The translations under genes and the position numbers were made by a program. From a virus, in IMG/VR virus record IMGVR_UViG_3300025099_000012, positions 1-64,000 of that record: a stretch of DNA of 64,000 bases. The stretch is one strand, 5' to 3'. Positions 15,871 through 64,000 of this stretch are shown here, piece after piece; the first letter of the stretch is position 1; each line of letters opens with the position of its first letter. The notes below the pieces were generated by a model, which was not told the DNA's origin, did not search any database, and saw only the letters and a program-made list of their open reading frames with translations.

Positions 15871-16149
15871 ATGGAATTTTCGACAGAGCAGCAATTGTTC
15901 CTGGCGATTCGCAGCCTCGACACAAAGCTCGACAGCGTGCTTCGTCGTCTCAACTCAGAAGAACAAGCAGAGTGGCTAGACACTAAAGACACTTGCTCGA
16001 TGCTTGGTTGCACCGACCGTCACCTCCGCAACTTGATGGCAGAGGGCACCATCGCTGGTGACTGCATCCGTAATGTCGGCACCATCAAACGTGCTCGTTA
16101 CAAGTTTCACCGCAGCAAGGTTATGAGTCAGTACCTCAAGCGCGTTTGA
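15871..16149 (+). CDS. excisionase-like helix-turn-helix protein
   Basis: This 92-residue protein starts with ATG 15871. The N-terminal 38 residues form an amphipathic helix, and residues about 40-90 are a winged-helix of the excisionase/MerR type: WLDTKDTCSMLGCTDRHLRNL, MAEGTI, RARYKFHRSKVMSQYL. It converges on the integrase gene and overlaps its end by 14 nt. Excisionases bend DNA at attP to direct excision; alternatively it may repress its own promoter at the inverted repeats just upstream. Confidence 0.7.
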   Translation: MEFSTEQQLFLAIRSLDTKLDSVLRRLNSEEQAEWLDTKDTCSMLGCTDRHLRNLMAEGTIAGDCIRNVGTIKRARYKFHRSKVMSQYLKRV

Positions 16150-53479: not shown

Positions 53480-54141
53480 ATCTAATTTGCAAATATCTTT
53501 AATTTTACCTAATTCAAAAACTACTCTTGCTACGCTATTTCCCTATATTGTTTATTTGAAAATGATAGGAGGAGGAGAGTAGCTAGGAATTAACAAGGGA
53601 TATATACAAAACAAGCGTATTTTGCGTAGTTCGTAGTTTCGATTCAAACAAAGCAGCGCTGCATCGTGATATCAGTAATTGTCAACGTCCGCTAACACAG
53701 CCATATTTAGTTTGTACCCGAAAATAAAGACCATATACCCAAATATTCTTGGGTCAGAGTCAGCTAAATTGACATATGGCACAAAAAGATCCCCTATAGG
53801 ACCCTAAATTAGTTAGAAAATTTTCGACACGTCTAATCCCTTCTGTACCCCGGTAACCGGTGGAACAAAAAAAATAGTCACAAGTTTTACATGTGATTTT
53901 TCTTTTGATTTAACTTCTGTTAAACAGAAGGATTCAACTCAAGTTAACAACAGTTAATTTTACACAAGATGTTTCACATTTGTTTAACTTATGTTGTAAC
54001 AGTTGAGTTCTTACACATGTAACGTTCACTTAACAGAAGTATAACTTTCGTTTATACATCTGTCGTTGACGTATGTGTATTCATTGATGACTCATGTCTC
54101 ACCTCGTAGAGATGTCATCATTCCCCCTCAATTCAATTACC
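53480..54141. promoter_or_regulatory. divergent intergenic control region with palindromes
   Basis: No credible gene lies in these 660 bases, where minus-strand virion transcription and plus-strand small-gene transcription diverge. Visible elements include the palindrome GCAGCGCTGC (53653-53662), CCCAA/TTGGG (53738-53753), CTTCTGTT-A-AACAGAAG (53914-53930), TTAAC-aaca-GTTAA (about 53944-53957) and a further TTAACAGAAG near 54032. The TTAACAGAAG family repeats suggest binding sites for a regulator or an initiator. Candidate early promoter or origin region. Confidence 0.5.
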
Positions 54142-54190
54142 GAACACACTCACTCACGCCTATCGGCGTGTCTATTAGTTAGTGTTCTTT
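54142..54190 (+). terminator. array hairpin element 1
   Basis: GAACAC (54142) and GTGTTC (54182) flank the stem CACGCC-TATC-GGCGTG (54155-54170), followed by the TGTTCTTT signature. It is the first element of the array and lies just ahead of the A-depleted tract. Confidence 0.75.
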
Positions 54191-54415
54191 GCTCGTTCTG
54201 TCGTGCTCGCTGTTTTCTCCGCCTCGTTCCTCGTTGGCTTTGGCTTGGCTTTCGCTCCTCGTCGCTCCGTCTTCTGTGAGGCTCCCTCTGGTACCCCTGG
54301 CGTCTGCGCTTCTCGCGTGGCTTTGCCTCTGCTTCCGTTCGTCTTCGCCTTTTGGTGGCTGCGTCTTGCTCCTCGCGGTTGCTCGGTGTTCGTTCTTTGA
54401 GGGCTTTGCCCTCTG
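54182..54415. other. 234-nt adenine-depleted tract (3 A on plus strand)
   Basis: The plus strand has only three A (54279, 54293, 54400) in 234 nt, against about a quarter to a third elsewhere. C, G and T alternate without a simple repeat. All plus-strand frames are open simply because stop codons need A, so open frames here are not evidence for a protein. It lies between array elements 1 and 2 and ends with hairpin GAGGGC-ttt-GCCCTC (54399-54413). Confidence 0.8.
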
Positions 54416-54463
54416 AACACATTTAACTCGCTGACTCGCGAGTCTATTCATTAGTGTTCTTTT
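54415..54463 (+). terminator. array hairpin element 2
   Basis: GAACAC (54415) and GTGTTC (54454) enclose ACTCGC-TGACTC-GCGAGT (54426-54443). The loop TGACTC recurs at 58989, 59169 and 61853. Confidence 0.8.
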
Positions 54464-54475
54464 TATATAACAGCC

Positions 54476-54619
54476 ATGTTCACGATCGTTGATCTTCTCA
54501 CAATGAAGGAACTTGCTACCTTCTCCTGTCACTACAAAGCTTCCTGTCGTGTAGCAGAGATGGAAGAAGAGTTAGATGCCAAAGGAATCAAACATGAGTT
54601 CCTGATTTGGCCTGAGTAA
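54476..54619 (+). CDS. 47-residue array protein
   Basis: ATG 54476 to TAA 54619. It has a helical Cys-containing middle (LATFSCHYKASCRVAEMEEEL) and ends KHEFLIWPE; the ELxxKGIxHEFLIW pattern is that of small phage early proteins. It begins 12 nt after element 2 and ends just before element 3. Confidence 0.7.
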   Translation: MFTIVDLLTMKELATFSCHYKASCRVAEMEEELDAKGIKHEFLIWPE

Positions 54620-54622
54620 GGC

Positions 54623-54668
54623 AACACATGAGCCCGTCTATCGACGGGTCTATTTCACTGTGTTCTTT
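54623..54668 (+). terminator. array hairpin element 3
   Basis: AACACA...TGTGTT flank CCCGTC-TATC-GACGGG (inner stem), followed by CTATTTCACTGTGTTCTTT. Same layout as elements 4-7 with different stem bases. Confidence 0.8.
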
Positions 54669-54682
54669 ATGAGTATGCACTC

Positions 54683-54844
54683 ATGTCCATTCGTAATTGG
54701 GAAGCCCACCTTGAAATCCAAGGGTGCCATATCGCATCCTTCAAGTTGTCTAACCCAAACGAACTTGCGGACAAGGTGACACTGGATGACCTCCAGTTCT
54801 GCGACAAGATCACACTTGTCCCTGTCCGCTTGCCTCGTGACTGA
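54683..54844 (+). CDS. 53-residue array protein
   Basis: ATG 54683 to TGA 54844; an earlier ATG at 54669 in another frame gives a less protein-like product. It is mixed alpha/beta (RNWEAHLEIQGCHIASF, DKVTLDDLQFCDKITLVPV). Its TGA is the start of the outer repeat of element 4 (TGAACACA). Function unknown. Confidence 0.7.
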   Translation: MSIRNWEAHLEIQGCHIASFKLSNPNELADKVTLDDLQFCDKITLVPVRLPRD

Positions 54845-54891
54845 ACACAAGTGCAGGCGTCTATCGACGTCTGTATTTTTTCGTGTTCTTT
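54843..54891 (+). terminator. array hairpin element 4
   Basis: GAACAC (54843) and GTGTTC (54883) flank GGCGTC-TATC-GACGTC. The T-rich stretch after the stem (TATTTTTT) makes it a good intrinsic terminator. Confidence 0.85.
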
Positions 54892-54902
54892 ACATCAAAC
54901 AG

Positions 54903-55073
54903 ATGTACACAGTTTCCTACTTCGAAGTTCACTGTGATGACGGTATCCCTGAAGCTACTCGCCAGTACTTCAATACCTACCACGAAGCACAGGCTTACGC
55001 TAAGTCCTTCGATGACTGGGACGACGTTCGCGTTGATTACCTCCAGGTAAACACAGAACCTCTCCCCTTCTGA
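54903..55073 (+). CDS. 56-residue array protein
   Basis: ATG 54903 to TGA 55073. Strand-helix-strand with aromatics (YTVSYFEVHCDDGIPEAT, FNTYHEAQAYAKSFDDW, VRVDYLQV). This pattern, with a helix of type EAxAYAxSF, resembles small cyanophage proteins built on one beta-alpha-beta unit; the 42-residue protein at 55131 shares it. Confidence 0.7.
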   Translation: MYTVSYFEVHCDDGIPEATRQYFNTYHEAQAYAKSFDDWDDVRVDYLQVNTEPLPF

Positions 55074-55120
55074 ACACACATGGCCCGTCAATTGACGGGT
55101 CTATTTCACTGTGTTCTTTT
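55072..55120 (+). terminator. array hairpin element 5
   Basis: GAACACAC and GTGTTC enclose CCCGTC-AATT-GACGGG. It is followed by TCTATTTCACTGTGTTCTTTT, identical to element 3 downstream of the stem although the loop differs. Confidence 0.85.
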
Positions 55121-55130
55121 AATCAATCTC

Positions 55131-55259
55131 ATGATTACTATCAAATTCAACGCTCCTTACACTGGTGCACTCCGCACTCAGTCGTTCTCATCACTTGCAG
55201 AAGCTCAATCAATGATTGACTTCTATGCATCATGTGGAACTAGAGCTTGGTTTGCATAA
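55131..55259 (+). CDS. 42-residue array protein
   Basis: ATG 55131 to TAA 55259. It contains ITIKFNAPYTGALRTQSFSS and LAEAQSMIDFYASCGTRAWF, the same strand-helix-strand plan as the previous array gene. Unknown function. Confidence 0.65.
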   Translation: MITIKFNAPYTGALRTQSFSSLAEAQSMIDFYASCGTRAWFA

Positions 55260-55263
55260 CCAT

Positions 55264-55304
55264 TGAAGGCAGTCTATCGACTGCTTTCTTTCACTGTGTT
55301 CTTT
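55264..55304 (+). terminator. array hairpin element 6
   Basis: Stem GCAGTC-TATC-GACTGC followed by TTTCTTTCACTGTGTTCTTT. The left outer GAACAC arm is degenerate here. Confidence 0.75.
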
Positions 55305-55320
55305 ATATCTAATTCACACT

Positions 55321-55500
55321 ATGAGTAATCCTTACATCACGCAAATCTGTCAACAGACTGGCGCTACTGAGCGCGAAGTCGTCCGTGACATGATGCCTAC
55401 ATTTCGTCCTATGACTTTCCCTTGTGAAATCCATGGACGTCATTTCGAGTCACACGATGACTACATGAATGAGTTACACGAGTTCATAGCTGGTATGTAA
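55321..55500 (+). CDS. 59-residue array protein
   Basis: ATG 55321 to TAA 55500. Two parts: a helix resembling a small HTH-like unit (ITQICQQTGATEREVVRDM) and a His-rich C-terminus (CEIHGRHFESHDDYMNELHE). The C...H...H spacing might bind metal; not assignable to a family. Confidence 0.7.
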   Translation: MSNPYITQICQQTGATEREVVRDMMPTFRPMTFPCEIHGRHFESHDDYMNELHEFIAGM

Positions 55501-55542
55501 CACAATGGCGTCAATTGACGCCTCTATTTCATTGTGTTCTTT
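55499..55542 (+). terminator. array hairpin element 7
   Basis: A perfect outer stem AACACAATG (55499-55507) with CATTGTGTT (55530-55538) encloses GGCGTC-AATT-GACGCC. It is the best-paired copy and shows that inner and outer arms are base-paired together; the previous stop codon lies in its left arm. Confidence 0.85.
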
Positions 55543-55558
55543 CGATACTAAGTATCTC

Positions 55559-55879
55559 ATGCGTAAACTCGCAACCCTTACCAAGATGACTGCTAAAGGC
55601 TTGTCAACTTGGACATTCGCTCAATGTGACAGTGTCTACGTTGCATTCGGTGGTACTACTAACCGATGCATCGTTCTACAGACTAAACGTCACTTAGAGG
55701 ACCTTATGTCTCAATTTGTGTCCTCTTATGGTTACGAGAGACCACGTCCTAAAGCAATTAGCTTGGACGGTGTAAATCTCAAACCTATTAAGCGTGTACC
55801 CCCTTCTATGCAGAAGGAGCTTGCTCTATTAGCAGCAACTCCCTCCCCTGCAGAAGAAGAGTTGGTACCACTCTTTTGA
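55559..55879 (+). CDS. 106-residue array protein
   Basis: ATG 55559 to TGA 55879; the frame is open upstream through the hairpin, but the first Met after the TGTTCTTT signature is used in all neighbours. Beta-rich N-terminus (TWTFAQCDSVYVAFGG, NRCIVLQTKRHLEDLMS) and a Pro-rich C-terminus ending VPLF. Function unknown. Confidence 0.65.
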   Translation: MRKLATLTKMTAKGLSTWTFAQCDSVYVAFGGTTNRCIVLQTKRHLEDLMSQFVSSYGYERPRPKAISLDGVNLKPIKRVPPSMQKELALLAATPSPAEEELVPLF

Positions 55880-55893
55880 GCAATAAGAGTCTT

Positions 55894-55915
55894 GGCGTCT
55901 ATCGACGCCTTTCTC
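55894..55915 (+). terminator. array hairpin element 8 (short form)
   Basis: GGCGTC-TATC-GACGCC followed by TTTCTCCTTCT. It has no TGTGTTCTTT signature or outer arms, unlike elements 3-7. Confidence 0.75.
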
Positions 55916-55957
55916 CTTCTATGCCCTATTGGGCTTATTCACTTATCCGTTACACGT

Positions 55958-56206
55958 ATGCTCATCAAAGTTCCTGGTCAAGATCTCAATCTTCGTTTCT
56001 TCGAAAAAGTTGAGACTGTTGACGACCAGTACAACATCTACGACATTGGCGTAGAGCAGCCTGGAGAAGATGGCAAGACCATCATCGACAGCATCTGTGT
56101 CGGTGGATCTTTCTCCTATGCCAAGTCATTGGTGAAATCCATTGATGACAAAGCTGCGGCTAAGAAAGCTGATGCTTCTGACGCGTCCTCCGCCGCTGCG
56201 GCTTAG
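55958..56206 (+). CDS. 82-residue array protein
   Basis: ATG 55958 to TAG 56206. Beta-rich core (LIKVPGQDLNLRFFEKVE, YNIYDIGVEQPGEDGK, IIDSICVGGSFSYA) followed by a Lys/Ala/Ser tail. The tail ends with an Ala run. Unknown; the C-terminus may be disordered. Confidence 0.65.
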   Translation: MLIKVPGQDLNLRFFEKVETVDDQYNIYDIGVEQPGEDGKTIIDSICVGGSFSYAKSLVKSIDDKAAAKKADASDASSAAAA

Positions 56207-56218
56207 CTTGACGCCTGT

Positions 56219-56240
56219 CCCCGCTACTGCGGGGGCTTAT
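56219..56240 (+). terminator. terminator
   Basis: CCCCGC-TACT-GCGGGG then GCTTATTTTA ends the 55958 gene. Stem bases differ from the other elements. Confidence 0.85.
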
Positions 56241-56266
56241 TTTACTGTTATCCGCTAATCTGACTT

Positions 56267-56473
56267 ATGCGTATTGAAGCTCCTTTCGATCTCCCTGTAG
56301 AAGCTCTCATCGGAGCAGTCATTACAAGTGACGATGGCGCTGAACTAGGAGTTATAGCCGACGTCAGAGTGGACATTACTAATCACGAGTTTATTCTCAC
56401 TCTTGATGATGGCATTGGTCTACTCTGGAGTAATTTGAAAGACTATTCAATCAAATTCCAAGGCTCTATCTAA
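56267..56473 (+). CDS. 68-residue beta-barrel-like protein
   Basis: ATG 56267 to TAA 56473. All-beta (VEALIGAVITSDDGAELGVI, ADVRVDITNHEFILTLDDG), like a PRC-barrel or small SH3 fold: G-A-x-V-x-S-x-D-G-x-x-x-G-x-V. Overlaps the convergent gene by 8 nt. Family call is tentative. Confidence 0.6.
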   Translation: MRIEAPFDLPVEALIGAVITSDDGAELGVIADVRVDITNHEFILTLDDGIGLLWSNLKDYSIKFQGSI

Positions 56474-57020
56474 ACCCTCTAGTACTTACTTCCGTAATTT
56501 TATTTACTGGAATATTTGCCACGTCCATCCTTCTCTTTACCGAAGGTATGGCAAACGCTGCTCCTGTTAAAGCTGCTATACCTATTGAACTAGGTGTTAT
56601 GGACAACTGTCCAGGCTCCTGTTCATCTGCGGGTCCTCCGAATCCAGCAGCGATATCCATAACTCCACGACCTGCTAAGGCTACGCCTGCGGCCGGAATT
56701 ACGTATTTGGGCACTGCATTTACTACTGGCAAACCATACTCAACAACCTGACGTTGTTTCTGTCCCATATACGTTTCAGGACCATATCTACCAATTGGTC
56801 TACCCATTTTATCCCTAACTATAGGGTTATCTGTAAATGGTGAAAGCGTTGCTTTACGTAAGCTTGGGAGTCCACCTCCTATGCCTGTGCCAAGAGTACG
56901 TACAACTGGATTAGCATCCTTGTACATATCTCTGATACGTAGACTGTATCTATCATCAACGTCTTGAAGACTCTCAATGATTTGCCTAAGCATATCTCCA
57001 GCCTTACGTCTTACTTCCAT
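56466..57020 (-). CDS. hypothetical protein with apolar helices, isolated on minus strand
   Basis: It encodes 184 residues. N-terminal charged helix (AGDMLRQIIESLQDVDDRY), a Gly/Pro middle, and two apolar segments (VIPAAGVALAGRGVMDIAAG; SIGIAALTGAAFAIPS). Composition matches the virion cluster, yet it lies in the array. GGTACAATAAG at about 57041-57051 (minus strand) may be its promoter. Confidence 0.6.
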   Translation of the reverse strand: MEVRRKAGDMLRQIIESLQDVDDRYSLRIRDMYKDANPVVRTLGTGIGGGLPSLRKATLSPFTDNPIVRDKMGRPIGRYGPETYMGQKQRQVVEYGLPVVNAVPKYVIPAAGVALAGRGVMDIAAGFGGPADEQEPGQLSITPSSIGIAALTGAAFAIPSVKRRMDVANIPVNKITEVSTRGFR

Positions 57021-57080
57021 AACACTATCTTTATTTATACCTTATTGTACCTACTATTGAATTGAGACTTATATCTACCG

Positions 57081-57158
57081 ATGGCTATTACCTACGTCAT
57101 AATCTTAGGTACCTGGGGCATAGCCTCAATCGCACTTCTACTACTTAAACTTCTATAG
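57081..57158 (+). CDS. 25-residue transmembrane micro-protein
   Basis: ATG 57081 to TAG 57158. The product is nearly one hydrophobic helix (ITYVIILGTWGIASIALLLL). Similar lengths are found in photosystem and cytochrome b6f subunits, but no specific match is evident. It might be a phage membrane effector. Confidence 0.45.
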   Translation: MAITYVIILGTWGIASIALLLLKLL

Positions 57159-57286
57159 TTTATTGAGAACAATTATCAACTATATAGATATAGAGCGGGT
57201 ATTTACTACACCCATTACCGTATATACCGTGACCTGTCCTATGAATTACGTAGGTAAATTAGGGGAGCGGTATATATAAATAAGCA
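57159..57286 (+). promoter_or_regulatory. intergenic region with inverted repeat and promoter-like AT boxes
   Basis: The 128-bp gap contains ATTACCGTATATACCGTGA-type near-palindromes (CGGTATA/TATACCG are spread over 57217-57275) and AT-rich TATATA just before the gene at 57287. No gene is evident. Confidence 0.35.
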
Positions 57287-57526
57287 ATGTCCGTATTTGA
57301 CCTTATGAGCCCATTCGAACCATGGCTGACTTCACGAAGTCCGTCCGTTTATGTTATATCTGATTCAGAAATGAAGGCATATAAACAGAAACAGGCAGTC
57401 GCGGAGATCGCGGAACTGCAACGGCTAGTCGATAGTCACAAGAGTTCTATTGAACGCCTTGAGGCTCACATCAGCCAACTCGAAACAGAGCTTCCAAAGC
57501 TCACCGAAACATCTAATGCCGCATAA
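57287..57526 (+). CDS. 79-residue coiled-coil protein (conserved cyanophage type)
   Basis: ATG 57287. The N-terminus FDLMSPFEPWLTSRSPSVYV is followed by a helix (EMKAYKQKQAVAEIAELQRL) and a coiled coil (SIERLEAHISQLETELPKL). I believe proteins with this N-terminus recur in cyanophages. Its leader shares AGCAATG(A/T)(C)CGTATTTGA with the next gene, indicating duplicated translation signals. The stop codon lies in the loop of the terminator hairpin. Confidence 0.7.
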   Translation: MSVFDLMSPFEPWLTSRSPSVYVISDSEMKAYKQKQAVAEIAELQRLVDSHKSSIERLEAHISQLETELPKLTETSNAA

Positions 57527-57533
57527 CTGCGGC
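57518..57533 (+). terminator. hairpin with the stop codon in its loop
   Basis: GCCGCA-TAAC-TGCGGC overlaps the last codons of the preceding gene. The gene's TAA stop is in the loop, and the first arm encodes Ala-Ala. Confidence 0.7.
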
Positions 57534-57568
57534 TGTAGATATAAATGCTCCATATATAGAAACAAGCA

Positions 57569-57679
57569 ATGATCGTATTTGATCAAACTACCATCATCCT
57601 CGCAATCATTGGCATGATTGGGCTCCTCTCCACAGGAGTTGTCCTTACAACTGCCTTCAAGCGTAGACCTTTGAGTTAG
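57569..57679 (+). CDS. 36-residue transmembrane micro-protein
   Basis: ATG 57569 to TAG 57677-57679. One hydrophobic helix (IILAIIGMIGLLSTGVVLTT) followed by basic FKRRP, giving an N-out/C-in or cytoplasmic C-tail topology. The leader is duplicated from the gene at 57287. Unknown membrane effector. Confidence 0.6.
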   Translation: MIVFDQTTIILAIIGMIGLLSTGVVLTTAFKRRPLS

Positions 57680-57680
57680 C

Positions 57681-57721
57681 AACACTGGCGCTTATCAGCG
57701 CCTGTATTTATTTATGTCCTT
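57681..57721 (+). terminator. array hairpin element
   Basis: AACAC then GGCGCT-TATC-AGCGCC followed by TGTATTTATTTATGTCCTTT. It keeps the TATC loop; the 3' signature is TGTCCTTT rather than TGTTCTTT. Confidence 0.8.
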
Positions 57722-57733
57722 TGGATATTTTCC

Positions 57734-57967
57734 ATGACTATGCAACCAGTAACTCTTAACAATGCACTCGATATTGCTGAAGAGCGTGCTTATGCACAAT
57801 CTCGTCCGAGCTTTCCCCCTGTAACAGACACAATTGTCTGGATCAAGCAGGTGGATTGGGCGGACGTACGCAACCGATGCCGTGGTGGAGTTCACAACGT
57901 AGGGCTTGTCCTTGCTGTGACTGGTGAAAAGATCCATGACCTTGGCGCTTGGTTAGCTGAGGTCTGA
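57734..57967 (+). CDS. 77-residue array protein
   Basis: ATG 57734. Helix (NNALDIAEERAYAQSRPS) then VTDTIVWIKQVDWADVRNRC and VGLVLAVTGEKIHDLGAWL. No family recognised. It is followed by the structured RNA at 57972. Confidence 0.65.
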   Translation: MTMQPVTLNNALDIAEERAYAQSRPSFPPVTDTIVWIKQVDWADVRNRCRGGVHNVGLVLAVTGEKIHDLGAWLAEV

Positions 57968-57971
57968 TCTA

Positions 57972-58029
57972 TCTGGGGATAACAGTGTGGGAGCTCTGCA
58001 TTTCGCAGACGAGGCATGACAACCCCAGA
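57972..58029 (+). ncRNA. structured RNA candidate
   Basis: A 58-nt element closes with TCTGGGG (57972-57978) and CCCCAGA (58023-58029). It contains TCTGC-ATTTC-GCAGA (57995-58009), with unpaired conserved-looking GATAACAGTGTGGGAG and CGAGGCATGAC flanking it. It precedes the next array terminator. The fold is more elaborate than a terminator and has no T run, so a regulatory RNA or riboswitch-like domain is possible. No known class was identified. Confidence 0.45.
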
Positions 58030-58030
58030 G

Positions 58031-58077
58031 TGAACAAGATTGCCGCTTAATCGCGGCTTTCTTTTTACATGTTCATC
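58031..58077 (+). terminator. array hairpin element
   Basis: TGAACA and TGTTCA flank GCCGC-TTAATC-GCGGC, then TTTCTTTTTACATGTTCATC. Outer arms are TGAACA/TGTTCA here. Confidence 0.8.
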
Positions 58078-58088
58078 ACCATATAAAC

Positions 58089-58277
58089 ATGGCACCTTTT
58101 AACAACGCTGTGTACCTTCAAAATGGTTTTTACAACCGTGAAGAGTACCTTGCATCATTGAAAGAAGAGTATGGAGCGGAGATTGTAGAAGCACTGACTT
58201 CTATTCTTCCAGCGTCTGAAGACTTCGATGGCTTAGTCACCGAACTTGAAGACTACGAGTCCACCACACTGATGTAA
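58089..58277 (+). CDS. 62-residue acidic array protein
   Basis: ATG 58089. N-terminus FNNAVYLQNGFYNREEYLAS followed by acidic helices (GAEIVEALTSILPASEDF, DGLVTELEDYESTTL). Net charge strongly negative, as in DNA-mimic or host-inhibitor proteins, though not diagnostic. Confidence 0.65.
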   Translation: MAPFNNAVYLQNGFYNREEYLASLKEEYGAEIVEALTSILPASEDFDGLVTELEDYESTTLM

Positions 58278-58285
58278 ACAAGATT

Positions 58286-58310
58286 GGCGCTTAACTGCGC
58301 CTTTCTTTTT
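58286..58310 (+). terminator. array hairpin element (short)
   Basis: GGCGC-TTAACT-GCGCC followed by TTTCTTTTT. The next gene starts immediately after, at 58311. Confidence 0.8.
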
Positions 58311-58850
58311 ATGTACTCTTTGCAAGATTACATGAACGCTATTGCATCAACTCACTACGTAGGAATACACCGTACGTCCCCATCTAAACAACGCATCGTA
58401 CATGCGTTTGACTTGGACGACACTATTACGATCAAACCGGATCACTTCAACAACTTAGGGCTTACCAAAGACGAGTTCTTTGATGCCTCCAGGTCATTCG
58501 AACCAGATGACCGTGTTGTTGATTTACTACGGATGATGTATCAGTGGGGCGATTCAATCGCTATATGCACTGCCCGTCCATCGGACAGGCTCACTGAATC
58601 CTATAACTGGCTTCGCAAGTGGTCTATTCCATTCGATTGCATACTTGTGTCCACTGGTGTGGACAACAGCGGTAATACGAAGCAGCACATGCTTCAGTAT
58701 TTACGCAAGCAATATCGAATGGTTGGCACACTTATCGATGACAGCCCTTACAACATTGAAGGTGCACGCCTTCAGAGGATCAAGCGTATCCATGTCCTCA
58801 AAAATTGTGAGTACTGGGACTCTCATCCCGAAGTTGTAACCAAGATCTAA
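58311..58850 (+). CDS. HAD-superfamily phosphatase
   Basis: This 179-residue protein starts at ATG 58311; the frame is open further upstream through the terminator but has no reason to start there. HAD motifs: I, AFDLDDTIT (about 32-40); II, ICTARPSDR (about 85); III, KQHMLQYL; IV, TLIDDSPYN (about 138). It is similar in layout to the phosphatase half of T4-type polynucleotide kinase and to 5'-nucleotidases. It is the largest enzyme in the small-gene array and may act on nucleotides or DNA/RNA ends. Confidence 0.8.
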   Translation: MYSLQDYMNAIASTHYVGIHRTSPSKQRIVHAFDLDDTITIKPDHFNNLGLTKDEFFDASRSFEPDDRVVDLLRMMYQWGDSIAICTARPSDRLTESYNWLRKWSIPFDCILVSTGVDNSGNTKQHMLQYLRKQYRMVGTLIDDSPYNIEGARLQRIKRIHVLKNCEYWDSHPEVVTKI

Positions 58851-58858
58851 TCTTTATC

Positions 58859-58984
58859 ATGCTTAAACTACTTATTCAACAGCATTCTGCTCCACGAACC
58901 CGTTTCACTGTCAAGTTTAACGGTAAGCATCTTGCTTTCAATACCTTTACTGAAGTTAAAACCTTCATTCTCAACAACCAATAG
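58859..58984 (+). CDS. 41-residue array protein
   Basis: ATG 58859 to TAG 58984. It contains LKLLIQQHSAPRTRFTVKF and FNTFTEVKTFILNN, a strand-helix unit like other array proteins. Its last codons overlap the terminator hairpin. Confidence 0.6.
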   Translation: MLKLLIQQHSAPRTRFTVKFNGKHLAFNTFTEVKTFILNNQ

Positions 58985-59024
58985 CCGCTGACTCGCGGCT
59001 TTCTTTTCTCGTGTCCAATGAATT
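58983..59024 (+). terminator. array hairpin element (loop TGACTC)
   Basis: AGCCGC-TGACTC-GCGGCT followed by TTCTTTTCTCGTGTCC. The loop equals those at 54432, 59169 and 61853. Confidence 0.8.
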
Positions 59025-59030
59025 GTCACT

Positions 59031-59153
59031 ATGACTGATGTACAACTTCGTGCTGCTGCTCGACTTAAGGCTGAACTCCTACGTCAGACCAAAGAGCGAG
59101 TACGTGACGCCTATTACCTGCGTAAAGCAGGGGTCATGACAGCCATCGTGTGA
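59031..59153 (+). CDS. 40-residue basic array protein
   Basis: ATG 59031 to TGA 59153. One long basic helix (VQLRAAARLKAELLRQTKER, RVRDAYYLRKAG). The stop codon forms the start of the next element's outer arm. Nucleic-acid binding is possible. Confidence 0.6.
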   Translation: MTDVQLRAAARLKAELLRQTKERVRDAYYLRKAGVMTAIV

Positions 59154-59199
59154 ACACTTGAGGGTCGCTGACTCGCGACTCTCTTTTTTAGTGTTCTTC
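59152..59199 (+). terminator. array hairpin element (loop TGACTC)
   Basis: GAACACT (59152) and AGTGTTC (59190) flank GTCGC-TGACTC-GCGAC. T run CTCTTTTTT and TGTTCTTC follow. Complete bipartite form. Confidence 0.85.
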
Positions 59200-59213
59200 A
59201 AATCGAATGCTTA

Positions 59214-59423
59214 ATGGCAATCACCTACGACTTCACCATTGTTGATACCAACATCACTGGTTTGTCTAAGGTGGTTCCTCAGAACGAAGCTGCGTTCTGC
59301 TATCTCGTAGATGAGACCGATTACACCGTTTTTGCTGACGGTTCCACTGCTCTATTCGAAGAGCGTGTCGGTGACTTCATCTCCGATGCAGGCCACGCAC
59401 ACATGTGCTGCGATATCGCTTGA
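59214..59423 (+). CDS. 69-residue array protein
   Basis: ATG 59214. Mixed strands and loops (AITYDFTIVDTNITGLSK, FCYLVDETDYTVFADG), C-terminus AHMCCDIA with a Cys pair. Opens with MAITY, as does the micro-protein at 57081. Unknown. Confidence 0.65.
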   Translation: MAITYDFTIVDTNITGLSKVVPQNEAAFCYLVDETDYTVFADGSTALFEERVGDFISDAGHAHMCCDIA

Positions 59424-59436
59424 GTTAACCACCATT

Positions 59437-59458
59437 GGCGCAAATTTGCGCCTTTCTC
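59437..59458 (+). terminator. palindromic terminator
   Basis: GGCGCAAA/TTTGCGCC is a perfect 16-nt palindrome followed by TTTCTCATTTTTT. It contains no loop signature of the other elements. Confidence 0.8.
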
Positions 59459-59483
59459 ATTTTTTGTAATTTATGAGGTCTAT

Positions 59484-59876
59484 TTGACACAATCGTTTAA
59501 CGTTCCAGATGGCATCTCTATGGATGAGCTTAAATCTCATCTAAATGATGCGAGAAATGAATCAGATATTCACGAAGATTGCACCTGTGAACGTGCAGAT
59601 GCGACAGAAGATTTAATGGAGCTTGCTTCAGAGCAAATCGCATTAACTGGACGTATGACAGACGATCCTGTTGCATTTCACAAAATCATGATGGTCATGA
59701 TTGTATCCAATATGATCGACTTTCACATGAATGTTGCAACTAAAGCAGGTGGAATGGACGATGGTACGTCTCATGCATGGATTCGTGATGCTGGCAAATT
59801 ACAAGCAGTCATGAACATTCTTACGTCTATTTCATGTGGTCCTGATGACCCATATGTAACAGTATCGGGCAACTGA
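59484..59876 (+). CDS. 130-residue helical array protein
   Basis: TTG start at 59484 with GAGG 8 nt upstream. Acidic and mostly helical (MDELKSHLNDARNESDIH; DLMELASEQIALTG), with a Met/His-rich helix (HKIMMVMIVSNMIDFHM). A CTCE motif near residue 35 may bind metal. Unknown function. Confidence 0.65.
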   Translation: MTQSFNVPDGISMDELKSHLNDARNESDIHEDCTCERADATEDLMELASEQIALTGRMTDDPVAFHKIMMVMIVSNMIDFHMNVATKAGGMDDGTSHAWIRDAGKLQAVMNILTSISCGPDDPYVTVSGN

Positions 59877-59886
59877 TTGCCTCAAT

Positions 59887-59918
59887 AGCCGCTTATCAGC
59901 GGCTTTCTTTTTACATGT
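59887..59918 (+). terminator. array hairpin element (loop TATC)
   Basis: AGCCGCT-TATC-AGCGGCT then TTCTTTTTACATGTTCTTT. The loop and the TGTTCTTT signature are both retained. Confidence 0.85.
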
Positions 59919-59937
59919 TCTTTATCAAAGTTTTCCT

Positions 59938-60423
59938 TTGAACAACACTTCAAAACGCTACGCTCAGTTCAACGCTCTTACCGTCACCGGTCGCATCTTC
60001 AATGCTGAGATCGTAGACAACAAAGGCAACAAGTTCTTGAGTGTATCCGTAATCAGCACTGCCTCCAAGGATGGCGCTGACTTGGTCTACACCTTCAACA
60101 ACTCCAATGGCTTGATGAGCCTCTTTGAGAAGGGTTTCTTCTGCAGAGGACGTCAAGTGACTATCACTGGACACATTCACAACGTTTCTGAGGTTTACAC
60201 CACACGAACAGGTGAAGTCACTCTGCGTAAGCGCCCTGAGATCCATCTCACAGGCGTAAACGTACTTGATGGTGGCCTTGGTCCTATGCCTGCCGCAGAA
60301 GGACAAGCACAGCGCTCCTCAATAGGCTCTGTCATCACTCAAGTAGGAACACCTGAGGTGGATGAAACTCCATCTATGGAGCCTGTTGAAGAAGCAGAAG
60401 AAAAGGTTGAAGCTCTTTTTTGA
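59938..60423 (+). CDS. single-stranded DNA-binding (OB-fold) protein
   Basis: This 161-residue protein starts with TTG 59938. The N-terminal 110 residues look like an SSB OB fold: FNALTVTGRIFNAEIVDNKG, FLSVSVISTASKDG, FFCRGRQVTITGHIHNV, VTLRKRPEIHLTGV. A Pro/Gln linker and an acidic tail ending EKVEALF follow. An acidic C-terminus with a final hydrophobic tip is the SSB partner-binding hallmark. Together with the protein at 770 and the fragment at the window start there are up to three OB-like proteins. It belongs to the small-gene array. Confidence 0.7.
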   Translation: MNNTSKRYAQFNALTVTGRIFNAEIVDNKGNKFLSVSVISTASKDGADLVYTFNNSNGLMSLFEKGFFCRGRQVTITGHIHNVSEVYTTRTGEVTLRKRPEIHLTGVNVLDGGLGPMPAAEGQAQRSSIGSVITQVGTPEVDETPSMEPVEEAEEKVEALF

Positions 60424-60431
60424 TAACAACT

Positions 60432-60462
60432 CCCGGCCGTGTATCCCACGGCTGGGTTTTTT
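60432..60462 (+). terminator. strong terminator
   Basis: CCCGGCCGTG-tatcc-CACGGCTGGG with T6 follows the SSB-like gene. The loop again starts with TATC. Confidence 0.9.
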
Positions 60463-60475
60463 CATTTTTTAAACT

Positions 60476-60556
60476 ATGGACATCGCAATCTATCTAACTA
60501 TCTATGCCACGTTCGCAATCTACTGCTACGTCCTCACGAAAGTCCAAGAGAACTGA
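60476..60556 (+). CDS. 26-residue transmembrane micro-protein
   Basis: ATG 60476 to TGA 60556. One hydrophobic, Tyr-rich helix (IAIYLTIYATFAIYCYVL) then TKVQEN. It starts 14 nt after the terminator and overlaps the next gene's first 53 nt in another frame. Resembles the micro-proteins at 57081 and 57569 in plan. Confidence 0.5.
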   Translation: MDIAIYLTIYATFAIYCYVLTKVQEN

Positions 60557-60752
60557 TTGGACATACACTTTAACCAAAAGCAGGTATGGGTTATACACAT
60601 CTATTCTTACTGATGGAACTCGAATGGTTACTGGAATGACAGAGGAAGGTGTTCGTGAAGTCACGGACACTATTCACATCCCTGTCATGAAAGGTGAGTT
60701 CGATGGATACACATCAATACCACGTAAGGGTGTAGTGGATGGGAAGCTTTAG
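60504..60752 (+). CDS. 82-residue hypothetical protein
   Basis: ATG 60504, within the micro-gene upstream. Basic N-terminus (RSQSTATSSRKSKRTD) and strands (WTYTLTKSRYGLYTSILTDG). Ends within 4 nt of the convergent gene's stop. No family recognised. Confidence 0.6.
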   Translation: MPRSQSTATSSRKSKRTDWTYTLTKSRYGLYTSILTDGTRMVTGMTEEGVREVTDTIHIPVMKGEFDGYTSIPRKGVVDGKL

Positions 60753-61762
60753 TGCTTGCCGTTCTTACCGTTACCGTTGATCGCCTTATTCATATAGACC
60801 TTGTCTGCAATGACAGTGACTGCCTTACCTTGGTCAGATGTATTGATATCACCGTCAAGTGCTTGACGATAAGCACTTAAAACTGAATCATCTGCAAATC
60901 TTTTGCCTAGCATGTTATTTACTTTAGAATTTAATTCCATTTTAAGTTCTTTATTCTTTTGACGAGTTTCTTTTTGTTTCTGTAATTTACGTAAATACTG
61001 TATTTCTTTAATTTCAGCAAGGTTTTGTGTTAAATCATCTGCATTAGTAACGTAACGTCTACCTTGCAATTGATCTAAAACCGCCAAAGCCATTTCTGAA
61101 CCTTCAGCATTTTGTAAAATTTGATTTAAATGACCTCCTTGTAGTCTTAAATCTTCTTTTAAGTGGGTTAAAACATCACTTTCAGAGTTAGGAACAATAT
61201 GACCTTGATTTGGTTTTTGATGCGTTATTAAATCTTTATATACACGATCATATCCCAAACCTAAATCATAAGCATATTGTGCCATTACTCCTGGTTGTTC
61301 GGCAACATTACGAGCTCCTTCATGCATTCCATGCCTACCACCAAACTTTGCTAACGTTTTTGCTGACATCAATGCTTTTACTGCTTGTTCAAGTTCAGCA
61401 ATTAATTTTGGATTAGTATCCATAGGCAGTGAAGGCATATCACCTCCTGATAGTTCACTTACTAAATATCGCTGAAGTGAGTCATTTTGTTGATTGTGAG
61501 TTAATACTGGATCGCTTTCCTTGTATTTAGACAACGTCCATTTATCTGGTCTTTCTGGATCAGGAATAATATCGTGATAATCTCCTATTTCAGCTCTTAA
61601 AACTTCCCTTTGGGATAACTCTTTAAGAAGCTTATATATCTCTGGGTCATCTTTAAGATTGAATCCATCTGCAATTTCATCAAAGTCTAAATCTCTAGTA
61701 TCCGTATTTAAACGTGATACATCTTGCCTAATTTTTGCTTTACGTAAATTTTCAGATAGCAC
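60749..61762 (-). CDS. hypothetical protein with HNH-like motif
   Basis: This 337-residue protein starts with GTG 61762. N-terminal half helical (DFDEIADGFNLKDDPEIYKL). Near residue 185-222 it has HQKPNQGHIVPNSES and EDLRLQGGHLNQIL, resembling the GHI...N-L-R-L...H-x-N arrangement of some HNH nucleases, without the Cys pairs. The C-terminal third is a Lys/Gln/Glu coiled coil. TACAAT (minus strand) lies near 61820. Nuclease function is a hypothesis. Confidence 0.55.
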   Translation of the reverse strand: MLSENLRKAKIRQDVSRLNTDTRDLDFDEIADGFNLKDDPEIYKLLKELSQREVLRAEIGDYHDIIPDPERPDKWTLSKYKESDPVLTHNQQNDSLQRYLVSELSGGDMPSLPMDTNPKLIAELEQAVKALMSAKTLAKFGGRHGMHEGARNVAEQPGVMAQYAYDLGLGYDRVYKDLITHQKPNQGHIVPNSESDVLTHLKEDLRLQGGHLNQILQNAEGSEMALAVLDQLQGRRYVTNADDLTQNLAEIKEIQYLRKLQKQKETRQKNKELKMELNSKVNNMLGKRFADDSVLSAYRQALDGDINTSDQGKAVTVIADKVYMNKAINGNGKNGKH

Positions 61763-61847
61763 CCATATCTATATACCTATGTGTTGTTTATTGATTACAT
61801 AAGTAACATCTCCTTTAAATATTGTATTTAATTTCTATATCTAACTT

Positions 61848-61885
61848 GCCGCTGACTCGCGGCTCTATGTTTTAGTGTCCTTTGA
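61848..61885 (+). terminator. array hairpin element (loop TGACTC)
   Basis: GCCGC-TGACTC-GCGGC followed by TCTATGTTTTAGTGTCCTTT. It restarts the plus-strand small-gene series after the convergent minus-strand gene. Confidence 0.8.
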
Positions 61886-61896
61886 CACTTAGATCT

Positions 61897-62118
61897 ATGG
61901 AACAACAAATGATCCTGATTTCTAAACCAGAAGTTGAAAGACTTTTATGCAAACTTCAGCGTGCAGAGGGTTATTGCCGTAATGCACGTTCGCCTATTCC
62001 TTTCAACCCTGAAACGGACATCCATGCAGAACCGTGGGAGTTCTTTGTCGGATCCTCTGGATTCGCAGGAATGACTATGCGTGATGTAATCCAATCACTC
62101 GAATCACATCTGAACTAA
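61897..62118 (+). CDS. 73-residue hypothetical protein
   Basis: ATG 61897. Helix (PEVERLLCKLQRAEGYCRN), then a loop (NPETDIHAEPWEFFVGSSG) and AGMTMRDVIQSLESHL. Its TAA overlaps the next ATG (TAATG at 62116-62120). Unknown. Confidence 0.65.
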   Translation: MEQQMILISKPEVERLLCKLQRAEGYCRNARSPIPFNPETDIHAEPWEFFVGSSGFAGMTMRDVIQSLESHLN

Positions 62119-62549
62119 TGGGAACTCGATCTGCTATCGGCTATCTACAACCGTCCGGTCGCGTCCGTGCGGTTTATTGCCATTGGGATGGCTACCCAGA
62201 AAATCAACTCCCGATACTGAAGTCGAAGTACAACACTCTCGCCAAAGTAAGAGCTCTGATTAAACCTGGGTTTATGTCATGCCTGGAAACTACCCACACC
62301 TGGGAATCTGAATACCAGCGCGATGACAATGGTAAAGCGTTATTCGATTTACCTCGGACAAATCTTCGTGACCCGCAGCCTCTTTATCACGCAGAGCGTG
62401 GGCACGGTGAAAAACCCAAAACCAGTAGCAAACCATATGACTACTGGCGCGATATGGATTGTGAATACTTGTATGTGTTCAATGGTACTTGGTGGATTAC
62501 ATATTCACTAACTGATAACCCACATACACGTATGCATATCCATGATTAA
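62118..62549 (+). CDS. conserved phage protein (GTRSAIGY family)
   Basis: This 143-residue protein begins GTRSAIGYLQPSGRVRAVYC then HWDGYPENQLPIL, a strongly conserved opening that I recognise in many phages of diverse hosts, with no established function. The C-terminus has YLYVFNGTWWITYSL. It is coupled to the preceding gene. Possibly a nucleotide- or ligand-binding beta fold. Confidence 0.75.
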   Translation: MGTRSAIGYLQPSGRVRAVYCHWDGYPENQLPILKSKYNTLAKVRALIKPGFMSCLETTHTWESEYQRDDNGKALFDLPRTNLRDPQPLYHAERGHGEKPKTSSKPYDYWRDMDCEYLYVFNGTWWITYSLTDNPHTRMHIHD

Positions 62550-62560
62550 ACCTAACCCAT

Positions 62561-62697
62561 CTAAGTACATTTTTACTTAGTATGGACCTGTACTCCCGCA
62601 GAAGAACAGCGTCAGGGAGGCCAATTAGGTTGTAGACATTTTTGCTGTTTCTGTCTACTTAATTAATCGGATCGCCATTTAACCGGTGGTCCGATCC
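62561..62697 (+). ncRNA. structured leader upstream of the ferredoxin gene
   Basis: Four hairpins lie in about 140 nt: CTAAGTA/TACTTAG (62561-62580), CTCCC/GGGAG (within 62592-62620), GTAGACA/TGTCTAC (62632-62658) and GGATCG/CGATCC with inner CCA/TGG (62669-62697). There is no long T run after any. A 17-codon Arg-rich frame (62582-62635) is embedded, possibly a leader peptide. Likely a regulatory 5' region or small RNA. Confidence 0.45.
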
Positions 62698-62736
62698 CTC
62701 ACTTGTTGACTTATATACTTTCTAACTTCATTCACC

Positions 62737-63030
62737 ATGGCTAATTACACAATCGAAGTCACTACTGAAGATGGTGGCAACTTTACTTTTCCTTGTGATA
62801 GTGAACAGTACATCATTGAAGCAGCTGAAGAAGCAGGCGTTGAACTTAACTATTCATGCCGTGCTGGTGCATGCTCAACCTGTGTAAGCAAGCTTGTGTC
62901 TGGCACTGTTGATCAATCAGATCAAAGCTATTTGGACGATGACCAACAAGCAGAAGGTTTTTTTATGTCCTGTGTTGCTTATCCAACCTCAAACGTAAAA
63001 ATGATCTCTGATGTTGAAGACCAACTGTAA
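62737..63030 (+). CDS. petF: [2Fe-2S] plant-type ferredoxin
   Basis: This 97-residue protein is a complete photosynthetic ferredoxin: strands YTIEVTTEDGGNFTF, helix EAAEEAGVELNYSC, the cluster-binding loop CRAGACSTC (Cys 41, 46, 49) and the last Cys in FFMSCVAYP (about 79). Ferredoxins of this type carry electrons from photosystem I. Phage-encoded copies are auxiliary metabolic genes that can keep bilin synthesis or ribonucleotide reduction supplied with reductant during infection. It has its own long structured leader and promoter-like TTGACT...TATACT near 62707. Confidence 0.95.
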   Translation: MANYTIEVTTEDGGNFTFPCDSEQYIIEAAEEAGVELNYSCRAGACSTCVSKLVSGTVDQSDQSYLDDDQQAEGFFMSCVAYPTSNVKMISDVEDQL

Positions 63031-63044
63031 ATCATTTAATTTCC

Positions 63045-63218
63045 ATGTTTACTACTTCTTGCGTCACATTAATCTGTCTATCATCCTTTTTCAATTCACC
63101 TACTACATTCAAAAGGATTGATAACAAGATATACGAAGTTAGAACTATGGGTGCTATTTATCGATGTGCAAAAAATCAACAAGATGCCTTTGTCTGCATC
63201 TCATTAAATTCTAATTAA
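63045..63218 (+). CDS. 57-residue hypothetical protein
   Basis: ATG 63045 to TAA 63218. It has a partly hydrophobic start (TTSCVTLICLSSFFNSP) and a C-terminal part (IDNKIYEVRTMGAIYRC, QDAFVCISLN) that looks like a small beta unit with two Cys. Its end overlaps the convergent gene by 8 nt. Confidence 0.5.
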   Translation: MFTTSCVTLICLSSFFNSPTTFKRIDNKIYEVRTMGAIYRCAKNQQDAFVCISLNSN

Positions 63219-63831
63219 TGGATGGTTTTTTGTACCAATTGGGATTAGCCTTCACACGCCTCTCATGAATTTGATCTAATTGATTTTTCAAAAATACTTG
63301 AGCAGCAGTCTCTTGAGGACTCTCTGCTTGAGATTTTGGTTTATCTAATCCATCGATATAGATTTCATTAGGCACTGGTGTATTACCAACGCCTCCATGT
63401 CTAAATCCAACTTGAGCTCCAAAGTTTCCTTTTTGATATGGATTTACTGTCATATTTACTGATGTTTTACGATCATCAGTTGTATAACTTCCACCAATTC
63501 CACCTTGATTTAAATTAAAGCCGATATTCGGACCCTGAATACTAAGCCCTGAACCTACAGTAACGCTACCGCCTTCACCATCAAATGTAATTGGTGCACC
63601 TGTCACGGCATTGATTAATGGATTTATAGCTGAATGATGCCCCTGGCCACTATTAGCACTTTCCTTAAACCCAGCGTCAATCAGCTGTTGAGGGCTATAT
63701 CGCATCGGTTGAGGACTATTTCGAACCTTAGGTCCATTCCCCTTAAATATTTCAGAAGATACTTCTGATGGAGATGGATCGTAATAAGGGTCTAAATAGT
63801 TCTCTGATGGAGTTTGACCTAAATAGCTCAT
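63211..63831 (-). CDS. hypothetical virion-type protein
   Basis: It encodes 206 residues. Pro/Ser/Tyr-rich N-terminus (LDPYYDPSPSEVSSEIF), a Gly/Asn/beta-rich middle (GGSVTVGSGLSIQGPNIG, LNQGGIGGSYT) and a helical C-terminus (AAQVFLKNQLDQIHERR). Composition like the structural genes. TACAAT (minus strand) lies near 63867-63872. Confidence 0.6.
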   Translation of the reverse strand: MSYLGQTPSENYLDPYYDPSPSEVSSEIFKGNGPKVRNSPQPMRYSPQQLIDAGFKESANSGQGHHSAINPLINAVTGAPITFDGEGGSVTVGSGLSIQGPNIGFNLNQGGIGGSYTTDDRKTSVNMTVNPYQKGNFGAQVGFRHGGVGNTPVPNEIYIDGLDKPKSQAESPQETAAQVFLKNQLDQIHERRVKANPNWYKKPSIN

Positions 63832-63897
63832 TTTAATATATATTCGTTTATATTTAGTATAAACAACGTAATTGTACTCACCTAATCTACCTATTCA

Positions 63898-64000
63898 ATG
63901 GATGAACACATTGGCTTCTTCCCCTTCGACGACATCGAAGAACTGGAACGTGAAGAAGATGAATTGCCTGCCATTCCTGAATGGCCTTCTATCTTCGAAT
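63898..64000 (+). CDS. start of an acidic protein (3' truncated by window edge)
   Basis: ATG 63898 opens a frame running off the window, 34 residues visible: EHIGFFPFDDIEELEREEDE then LPAIPEWPSIFE. Extremely acidic N-terminus. Not identifiable from the fragment. Confidence 0.6.
   Translation, partial: MDEHIGFFPFDDIEELEREEDELPAIPEWPSIFE

Follow-up and report, generated by a model that had tools for sequence, protein, structure and literature searches.

A recurrent hairpin-and-motif element at the boundaries of tiny genes in cyanophages related to S-EIV1

Regions of intense gene shuffling in T4-type phages contain promoter-early stem-loops (PeSLs), composite motifs that join a promoter and a terminator (PMC4503421). 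Cyanophage S-PM2 has few PeSL-like sites, and these were judged an unlikely cause of its region rich in open reading frames (ORFs) (PMC4503421). In the haloarchaeal virus HGTV-1, most ORFs of one side of the genome stand behind a conserved motif with an inverted repeat, which has been compared with PeSLs (PMC3950731). In cluster K mycobacteriophages, the non-structural half of the genome carries the SAS/ESAS, short asymmetric repeats placed directly upstream of start codons and almost all oriented alike; about half of the SAS are preceded by an inverted repeat, and the consensus of this inverted repeat varies between phage subclusters (PMC3203893). The stoperators of cluster A mycobacteriophages are many asymmetric, genome-wide sites that act on transcription (PMC9283540). 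Next to a stable core, phages maintain arrays of tiny genes whose function is unknown, and how these are expressed and swapped without broken regulation is an open question. Here we describe one short element that seems to give a stop, a start and an exchange point in such an array, found in cyanophages of a lineage with a photosynthesis gene. The array lies at approximately 54.1-60.4 kb of the window (the stretch analyzed, which is the first 64,000 bases of the 82,299-bp virus record labeled G000) and consists of consecutive small plus-strand genes interrupted by one minus-strand gene. The record is a cyanophage genome, distantly related to the isolate S-EIV1.

By function, the element is closest to PeSLs, the HGTV-1 motif and SAS/ESAS. 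As with PeSLs, small ORFs are separated by stem-loops that are terminators by sequence, and these are dense where genes are shuffled. The element is no PeSL by promoter type or phage lineage, however: the host-like sigma-70 early promoter inside PeSLs was not found in it, it has a different conserved motif and a second hairpin at the start codon, and its carrier is not a T4-type myovirus by the genes found (the S-EIV1 match, a family A DNA polymerase and a VapE-like protein). HGTV-1, which we liken by description only, is an archaeal virus whose motif has a TATA-box-like region. SAS contains AGGAG by reading of the printed repeat, whereas leaders here are Shine-Dalgarno-like in 4/107, and an RNA hairpin at ESAS was little supported by the authors (PMC3203893), whereas the hairpin here covaries and has a T tail. 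Stoperators are repressor binding sites, and no covarying hairpin or start-codon spacing is described for them in the portion of the report covered (PMC9283540). A search of literature titles and abstract openings, not extending to the text of the S-EIV1 paper, found no such element in this lineage. The comparison suggests that a PeSL-like organization has arisen more than once from different parts.

The element begins with a short G+C-rich hairpin and a T-rich tail, and the 10-letter motif TGTGTTCTTT lies approximately 10 nucleotides (nt) past the hairpin. A preliminary description, made from the letters of the window alone, had reported the stems, their compensating changes and this signature, and all three are present where it placed them. 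The covariation score of the inner stem was 0.901, compared with 0.213 in shuffled and at most 0.191 in slid versions, and 94 cells had changes on both sides compared with 28 in shuffles; rows with fewer than 5 of 6 pairs had been left out beforehand, and the number of pairs with two-sided change (6) was no higher than in shuffles (5.5). A covariance model, R1, was built from 48 elements of seven records (48 of 55 six-pair elements entered alignment A1; G001 rows were not included) and searched against 51 records, including 41 of the 80 structural-protein loci described below. R1 matched 16 of the 51 records, 8 of which were first examined after the model was built, and it matched G000 16 times (E value ≤0.01), at least 13 times in 54143-59925 and at least twice outside. 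Among the 35 records with no match, 30 were contigs of less than 25 kb around a structural gene, from which the array region may simply be missing. With G041 left out for its single match, the composite boundary element is real, and at least 15 records, all of one phage lineage, share it; R1 can serve as a marker for finding such arrays.

The pairing-based choice of rows in the covariation test is avoided by a test anchored on the motif alone. Exact TGTGTTCTTT occurred 29 times in eight records, always in arrays and on the array strand and never on the opposite strand, and a hairpin stood directly before 29/29 of these sites, compared with 105/1877 sites of decoy words. Because the eight records are related, the 29 sites are not independent. 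When one mismatch was allowed, a hairpin preceded 19/56 array-strand sites and 0/17 opposite-strand sites.

Terminator-like sites in 53500-64000, counted on both strands, numbered 27, compared with 7.8 (standard deviation 2.6) in shuffles. Over a set of 225 elements, for which a minimum T content was among the selection criteria, the first 8 nt of the tail held a mean of 5.1 T and the mean hairpin energy was -11.2 kcal/mol. The loop had been described as kept as TATC or TGACTC; this did not hold, as AATT, TTATCA, TTAACT, AAAT and others also occur. Automatic calling across 16 array stretches yielded 250 gene calls, and a hairpin lay no more than 30 nt past the stop codon in 137 of them (5-14 nt away in 120 of the 137), while in 176 of the calls the start codon lay 26-37 nt past the end of the upstream hairpin (search limited to 14-62 nt). 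With its G+C-rich stem, short loop and T-rich tail a few bases past the stop codon, the hairpin resembles an intrinsic terminator, from which the element differs by the conserved 10-nt motif at a near-fixed distance and by copies that also precede first genes. The same type of hairpin follows, without the motif, a plus-strand ORF ending at 7352 that faces a minus-strand ORF, as would be expected where convergent ORFs need a terminator only. In one locus search, 21 of 30 loci had no hairpin ahead of the match. Judged by these features, part of the element is probably a terminator.

Motif-bearing elements numbered 95, of which 72 were kept as non-redundant; 10 more, outside arrays, were set aside by eye, leaving 62. 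The distance from the motif end to the start codon was 11-13 nt in 39/57, and the base after the motif was a purine in 45/57 (A in 34, G in 11). This spacing, the purine and the hairpins that start at the same place suggest that an RNA 5' end lies directly after the motif. An element also stood ahead of the first gene in 7/7 records whose array head was examined, with a poor motif in G004 (the head of G005 and those of later records were left out). In G000, G002 and G004, no same-strand gene was found shortly upstream of the head element; G001, G003 and G006 end 320-370 bp upstream of it, and in G007 a same-strand ORF ends approximately 730 bp before it. Given its place at the array head, the unit seems to act for the gene downstream as well. 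Pairing of the motif with 16S rRNA gave best sites with 2 mismatches at the three loci checked.

A second hairpin stands flush after the motif in a subset of copies. Stems of at least 5 bp began at offset 0 in 17/62 elements and at +0 to +2 in 23/62; the counts at offsets -2 to +1 were 9, 17, 17 and 13 (one hairpin may count several times), whereas background offsets 8-79 averaged 2.2 and did not exceed 6, and gene family F8 supplied about six of the flush hairpins. In a second set of 18 elements, taken from seven other records, a stem at -1 to +2 was present in 9; the background mean was 0.60, with one distant offset reaching 5. The 20 nt behind the motif had a folding energy of -1.97, compared with -0.75 in shuffles (0/200 as low), and two control windows were reached in 29 and 26 of 200 shuffles. 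By reading, the start codon lies within or against the 3' arm of the second hairpin in 19/23 cases or more (e.g., ATGAGTATGCACTCATG and ACATCAAACAGATGT). Orthologues retained a leader hairpin although its letters differed (GGAATAATTCC, GACTAATAGTC and GACTGATAGTC), and in family F11 changed letters left the shape of the leader hairpin intact. The leader had been characterized as common to the genes and as lacking a Shine-Dalgarno sequence. The second point was borne out, with a Shine-Dalgarno-like 4-mer in only those four of the 107 array leaders (relatives included) compared with 9/36 other phage genes from a hand-made list; the first was not, as the leader is gene-specific and often has its own hairpin. 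In a comparison of 169 of the 250 gene records, leader similarity within gene families was 0.437 compared with 0.309 (0/200 permutations), with no effect of genome (0.309), whereas hairpin similarity was 0.643 by genome and 0.501 otherwise (0/200 permutations). The leader thus goes with the gene and the hairpin mainly with the genome, a pattern that fits crossovers in the common tail between hairpin and leader, or homogenization of hairpins within a genome. The flush second hairpin, these gene-following leaders and genome-following hairpins, and the insertion, loss and reordering of single cassettes are newly seen here.

The 250 gene calls fell into 34 families and 72 singletons. Family F8 had 9 left and 7 right called neighbors in 9 stretches, and family F1 had 1 left neighbor in 13. 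An A-B-C arrangement faced an A-C arrangement at 31 places in 56 record comparisons, and tblastn confirmed the absence of B in 47. In 25 of the 47, the A-C record had 49-65 nt between A and C, which is the width of one element; in the remaining 22, the gap was wider and the difference ambiguous. The 25 clean differences stem from seven triples, one of which (F11-F10-F4) is confounded by an uncalled gene. A clean example is F8-F13-F12 in G000 compared with F8-F12 in G001. Both orders were seen for 11/257 family pairs. Cassettes are gained, lost and shuffled at element boundaries, and the earlier suggestion of an insulated cassette with a processed or terminated boundary fits these data. Because genes are gained, lost and reordered between the marks, each looks exchangeable and separately expressed, and the comparison supports an exchange role of the element. 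Exact motifs as marks of the turnover zone were not supported (Spearman -0.16, the wrong sign).

We regard it as somewhat probable that the element is a composite of a terminator and a start signal that would give one mRNA per gene and also act as an exchange point. The hairpin and tail would terminate the upstream message as an intrinsic terminator, and TGTGTTCTTT would mark where the following message begins, at the purine usually found directly after the motif. In some copies, a small hairpin starting from this 5' end would mostly overlap or abut the start codon. Each tiny gene would then yield its own short mRNA, structured at its ends. Recombination between copies, presumably homologous, would add, remove or move one gene and leave the neighbors intact; it would be possible because nearly identical 20-30 bp precede many genes. 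A start part is likely in place, and initiation at the motif, as a non-sigma-70 start signal, is weakly favored over cleavage. Tentatively, and with more doubt, we raise the possibility that TGTGTTCTTT with its obligate hairpin belongs to an undescribed class of start signal: a phage promoter that is coupled to a hairpin and is not of the sigma-70 type, or else a site dedicated to RNA cleavage. Such a signal would yield a monocistronic mRNA for every small gene, with a hairpin at its 3' end and in many cases another at its 5' end across the start codon, and would also serve as the site of gene exchange between phages.

Several observations weigh against the composite terminator and start signal. 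The sigma-70 -10 box TANNNT occurred in 13/57 leaders, compared with 21.6 in leader-only shuffles in which the motif end was held fixed (0/500 as low) and 32.6 in fuller shuffles; at any one fixed offset it was never present in more than 3 leaders. A sigma-70 promoter in the leader is therefore not supported. Promoter-like sites in 53500-64000 numbered 13 compared with 22.9 expected. The phage encodes a cyanobacterial-type sigma-70 factor (35985-36926, minus strand), found in 17/19 records searched (in pieces in G002 and G007, the G007 match being broken by stops and frame changes), and its region 2.4 is ordinary by reading. It keeps residues that contact a normal -10 box, so that it is no obvious reader of the motif. 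A single-subunit (T7-type) RNA polymerase had no match in 8 records, a weak negative as the control was also silent. Unlike a free promoter, the exact motif never occurred without the hairpin, and in G034 and G043, where the sigma factor is also present, hairpins are retained and the motif has mostly decayed. In the folding test, the control window at +41 to +66 was also below all shuffles. Hairpin similarity by gene family (0.586) exceeded all 200 permutations, so the genome is not the only thing that hairpins follow. B was actually present, as an uncalled gene, in 9/56 of the arrangement comparisons, and elements with a poor motif were not ahead of more widely shared genes, contrary to a simple shuffling-zone model.

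Depletion of the -10 box, the constant coupling of the exact motif to the hairpin, the element at the array head and a second hairpin flush with the presumed cut would also be expected if the elements punctuated a long transcript, with one promoter in the noncoding stretch before the array, a hairpin-resistant polymerase and a nuclease that cuts at the motif, leaving a hairpin at the 3' end and often at the 5' end of each message. However, such processing requires readthrough of many terminator-like hairpins, and no antitermination factor was identified (none was searched for beyond the boxA test below). The conserved motif and the following purine suit a start site at least equally, and the hairpin also stands alone at a gene end. 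We consider processing rather unlikely.

It is distinctly unlikely that the hairpins are plain intrinsic terminators, with the tail as a U-rich ribosome standby or S1 site and weak scattered promoters restarting transcription. Several genomes conserve the motif letter by letter, with its spacing nearly fixed, and in records with enough upstream sequence the element precedes first genes, where there is nothing to terminate; these points stand against the good hairpins with T tails, the scarcity of Shine-Dalgarno sites and the variability of the motif in G034 and G043, all of which agree with plain terminators. 

Integron-like site-specific recombination, in which the hairpin would be a single-stranded site where a recombinase inserts genes, is very improbable. 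One-gene units with a hairpin after each, and their gain, loss and reordering, recall such a system, and the preliminary description had hinted at mobile cassettes. This hint gained no support: the only tyrosine-recombinase-like (integrase-like) gene noticed (16136-17245, minus strand; PHROG 1, E value 4e-13) was found in 2 of 16 records, G000 and G002, the G002 copy being split into two pieces and containing a stop, and not in the other 14, several of them fragments; other recombinases were not searched for. A tyrosine recombinase as cassette mover is thus not supported. Moreover, the hairpin letters track the genome more than the cassette (0.643 by genome, 0.586 by family), unlike an integron site carried with its cassette, and the motif keeps a near-fixed distance from start codons. 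Equally improbable is Nus-factor antitermination with a boxA-like motif followed by a boxB-like hairpin, since, although TGTTCTTTA resembles the boxA of E. coli and B. subtilis and hairpins flank the motif on both sides, the motif was in 0/11 rRNA leader loci of 8 cyanobacterial genomes taken as likely hosts, with one RCC307 site within 2 mismatches, and the stretch read as the host boxA is GAACCCTT-like.

The preliminary description also held that an outer arm, GAACAC/GTGTTC, starts at the stop codon and encloses full copies. An arm of at least 6 bp is present in 9/14 non-redundant elements of the window's own group (a). In the first copy, at 54143, the arm occurs without a stop codon. The corresponding counts were 5/9 in group f, 2/11 in b, 1/4 in c, 0/6 in d, 0/12 in e, 1/2 in h and 1/5 in i, with two group-g elements left out, and the observed mean was reached by 0 of 200 shuffled arms in a, b and f, 3 in i, 4 in h, 14 in e, 33 in c and 87 in d. 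The frequency of 9/14 here compared with 0/18 in two other groups indicates that the arm is not the core of the element; as such it is not supported outside some lineages. In groups d and e (G005 and G007), several copies keep the tail without the arm, so the arm is not the reason for the conservation of the tail.

In the phage collection, S-EIV1, a Synechococcus phage, was the sole match to the 753-amino-acid structural protein of the record (44% identity). In IMG/VR, 86 stretches encode relatives of this protein, of which 80 were kept; the lineage is therefore common in IMG/VR, with a single isolate in the phage collection. The record encodes photosystem protein D1, with 83-91% identity to at least 80 cyanobacterial loci among the matches listed. 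ThyX, ribonucleotide reductase, a transaldolase-like protein and ferredoxin were assigned by reading translations, and a family A DNA polymerase, a VapE-like protein, a terminase and the sigma-70 factor are also encoded. The array region had no DNA similarity, near or distant, to phage isolates, and one 50-nt element had no DNA match among them at E≤1. S-EIV1 had no match to R1 or to the sigma factor, and its small-gene region had no near-exact motif (only minus-strand hairpins of the region were printed). In this region (KJ410740, approximately 40.7-43.8 kb, minus strand), other leaders recur that look structured, AAGCGGGT...GTGCAAACC and CCCTGGGC...GTAAGTCCCAGG, with no Rfam match at the gathering score. 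In 53-64 kb of the window, Rfam gave one match only, to CyVA-1 RNA at 62559-62630, outside the array and below threshold (22.1 bits compared with a gathering score of 41.4). G002 (106,357 bp) contains the array region twice, at 14 kb and 95 kb, approximately 81.4 kb apart and with different gene content, perhaps a circular genome of approximately 81 kb assembled from two strains past one turn.

The features of the array are listed in Table 1. The preliminary description, which covered 54142-59918, had counted about 20 tiny genes with a hairpin between nearly every pair. We counted approximately 18 same-strand small ORFs, with a minus-strand gene at 56466-57020 in between; hairpins separate most of them, and a stretch at approximately 56.4-57.65 kb is free of elements. 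At the hairpins at 55894, 56217 and 59437, the motif is weak or missing.

Table 1. Elements, hairpins and genes of the array and its surroundings (positions in the window, the last row in the full record; aa, amino acids).
Feature	Position	Strand	Remarks
Element 1, array head	54143-54192	+	Hairpin CACGCC-TATC-GGCGTG with T tail and AGTGTTCTTT; same-strand genes not seen close upstream
Element 2	54415-54464	+	Hairpin ACTCGC/GCGAGT; outer arm GAACAC
Small gene, 47 aa	54476-54619	+	Family F22
Element 3	54621-54670	+	CCCGTC/GACGGG, exact motif; adjoining leader hairpin ATGAGT/ACTCAT
Small gene, 53 aa	54683-54844	+	No relative in the set
Element 4	54844-54893	+	Leader hairpin ACATC/GATGT across start codon
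Small gene, 56 aa	54903-55073	+	Family F8 (called in 9 records)
Element 5	55072-55121	+	Exact motif
Small gene, 42 aa	55131-55259	+	Family F13; cassette missing between F8 and F12 in G001
Element 6	55257-55306	+	Exact motif
Small gene, 59 aa	55321-55500	+	Family F12 (PHROG 649, unknown function)
Element 7	55495-55544	+	Exact motif; outer arm AACACAATG/CATTGTGTT
Small gene, 106 aa	55559-55879	+	Family F6
Hairpin	55894-55909	+	GGCGTC/GACGCC, T tail, degenerate motif
Small gene, 82 aa	55958-56206	+	Family F7
Strong terminator-like hairpin	56217-56236	+	No motif
Small gene, 68 aa	56267-56473	+	
Element	57675-57724	+	Motif variant TATGTCCTTT; leader hairpin with compensating changes in orthologues
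Small gene, 77 aa	57734-57967	+	Family F11
Element	58030-58079	+	Hairpin GCCGC/GCGGC
Small gene, 62 aa	58089-58277	+	Cassette missing between F11 and F9 in G015 and G049
Element	58274-58323	+	Motif variant TGTACTCTTT
Gene, 172 aa	58332-58850	+	Family F9; PHROG 415 (polynucleotide kinase) as best match, E 1.5e-17
Element	58972-59021	+	Hairpin AGCCGC/GCGGCT
Small gene, 40 aa	59031-59153	+	Family F10
Element	59152-59201	+	Outer arm GAACACT/AGTGTTC
Small gene, 69 aa	59214-59423	+	Family F4
Hairpin	59437-59452	+	GGCGC-AAATTT-GCGCC, T tail, degenerate motif
Gene, 130 aa	59484-59876	+	Family F2
Element	59876-59925	+	Hairpin AGCCGC/GCGGCT, CATGTTCTTT
Gene, 161 aa	59938-60423	+	Family F1; just beyond the range first described
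Long strong terminator-like hairpin	60432-60456	+	No motif; 3' of the 161-aa gene
Further element	61836-61885	+	AGTGTCCTTT; beyond the range first described
Further R1 match	73197-73246		Beyond the range first described

A long noncoding stretch lies between the divergent structural genes and the array. At 53829-54140, and at the heads of G001-G004, G006 and G007, it contains a conserved box (CCCTCTGTACC-like, with an inverted repeat and AACAAAAAAAATA), and many AACAG/GTTAAC-like repeats also occur in the stretch, which is possibly a replication origin or the main promoter. The head cassette (54182-54400) is very pyrimidine-rich and GC-rich, with other content at this place in G001; its ORF has a GTG start, begins within the motif GTGTTCTTT and ends in GTGTTCGTTCTTTGA. 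At 57271-57582, two small genes without an element have a common upstream box, TATATATAAATAAGCAATG / TATATAGAAACAAGCAATG, which we take to resemble T4-type late promoters.

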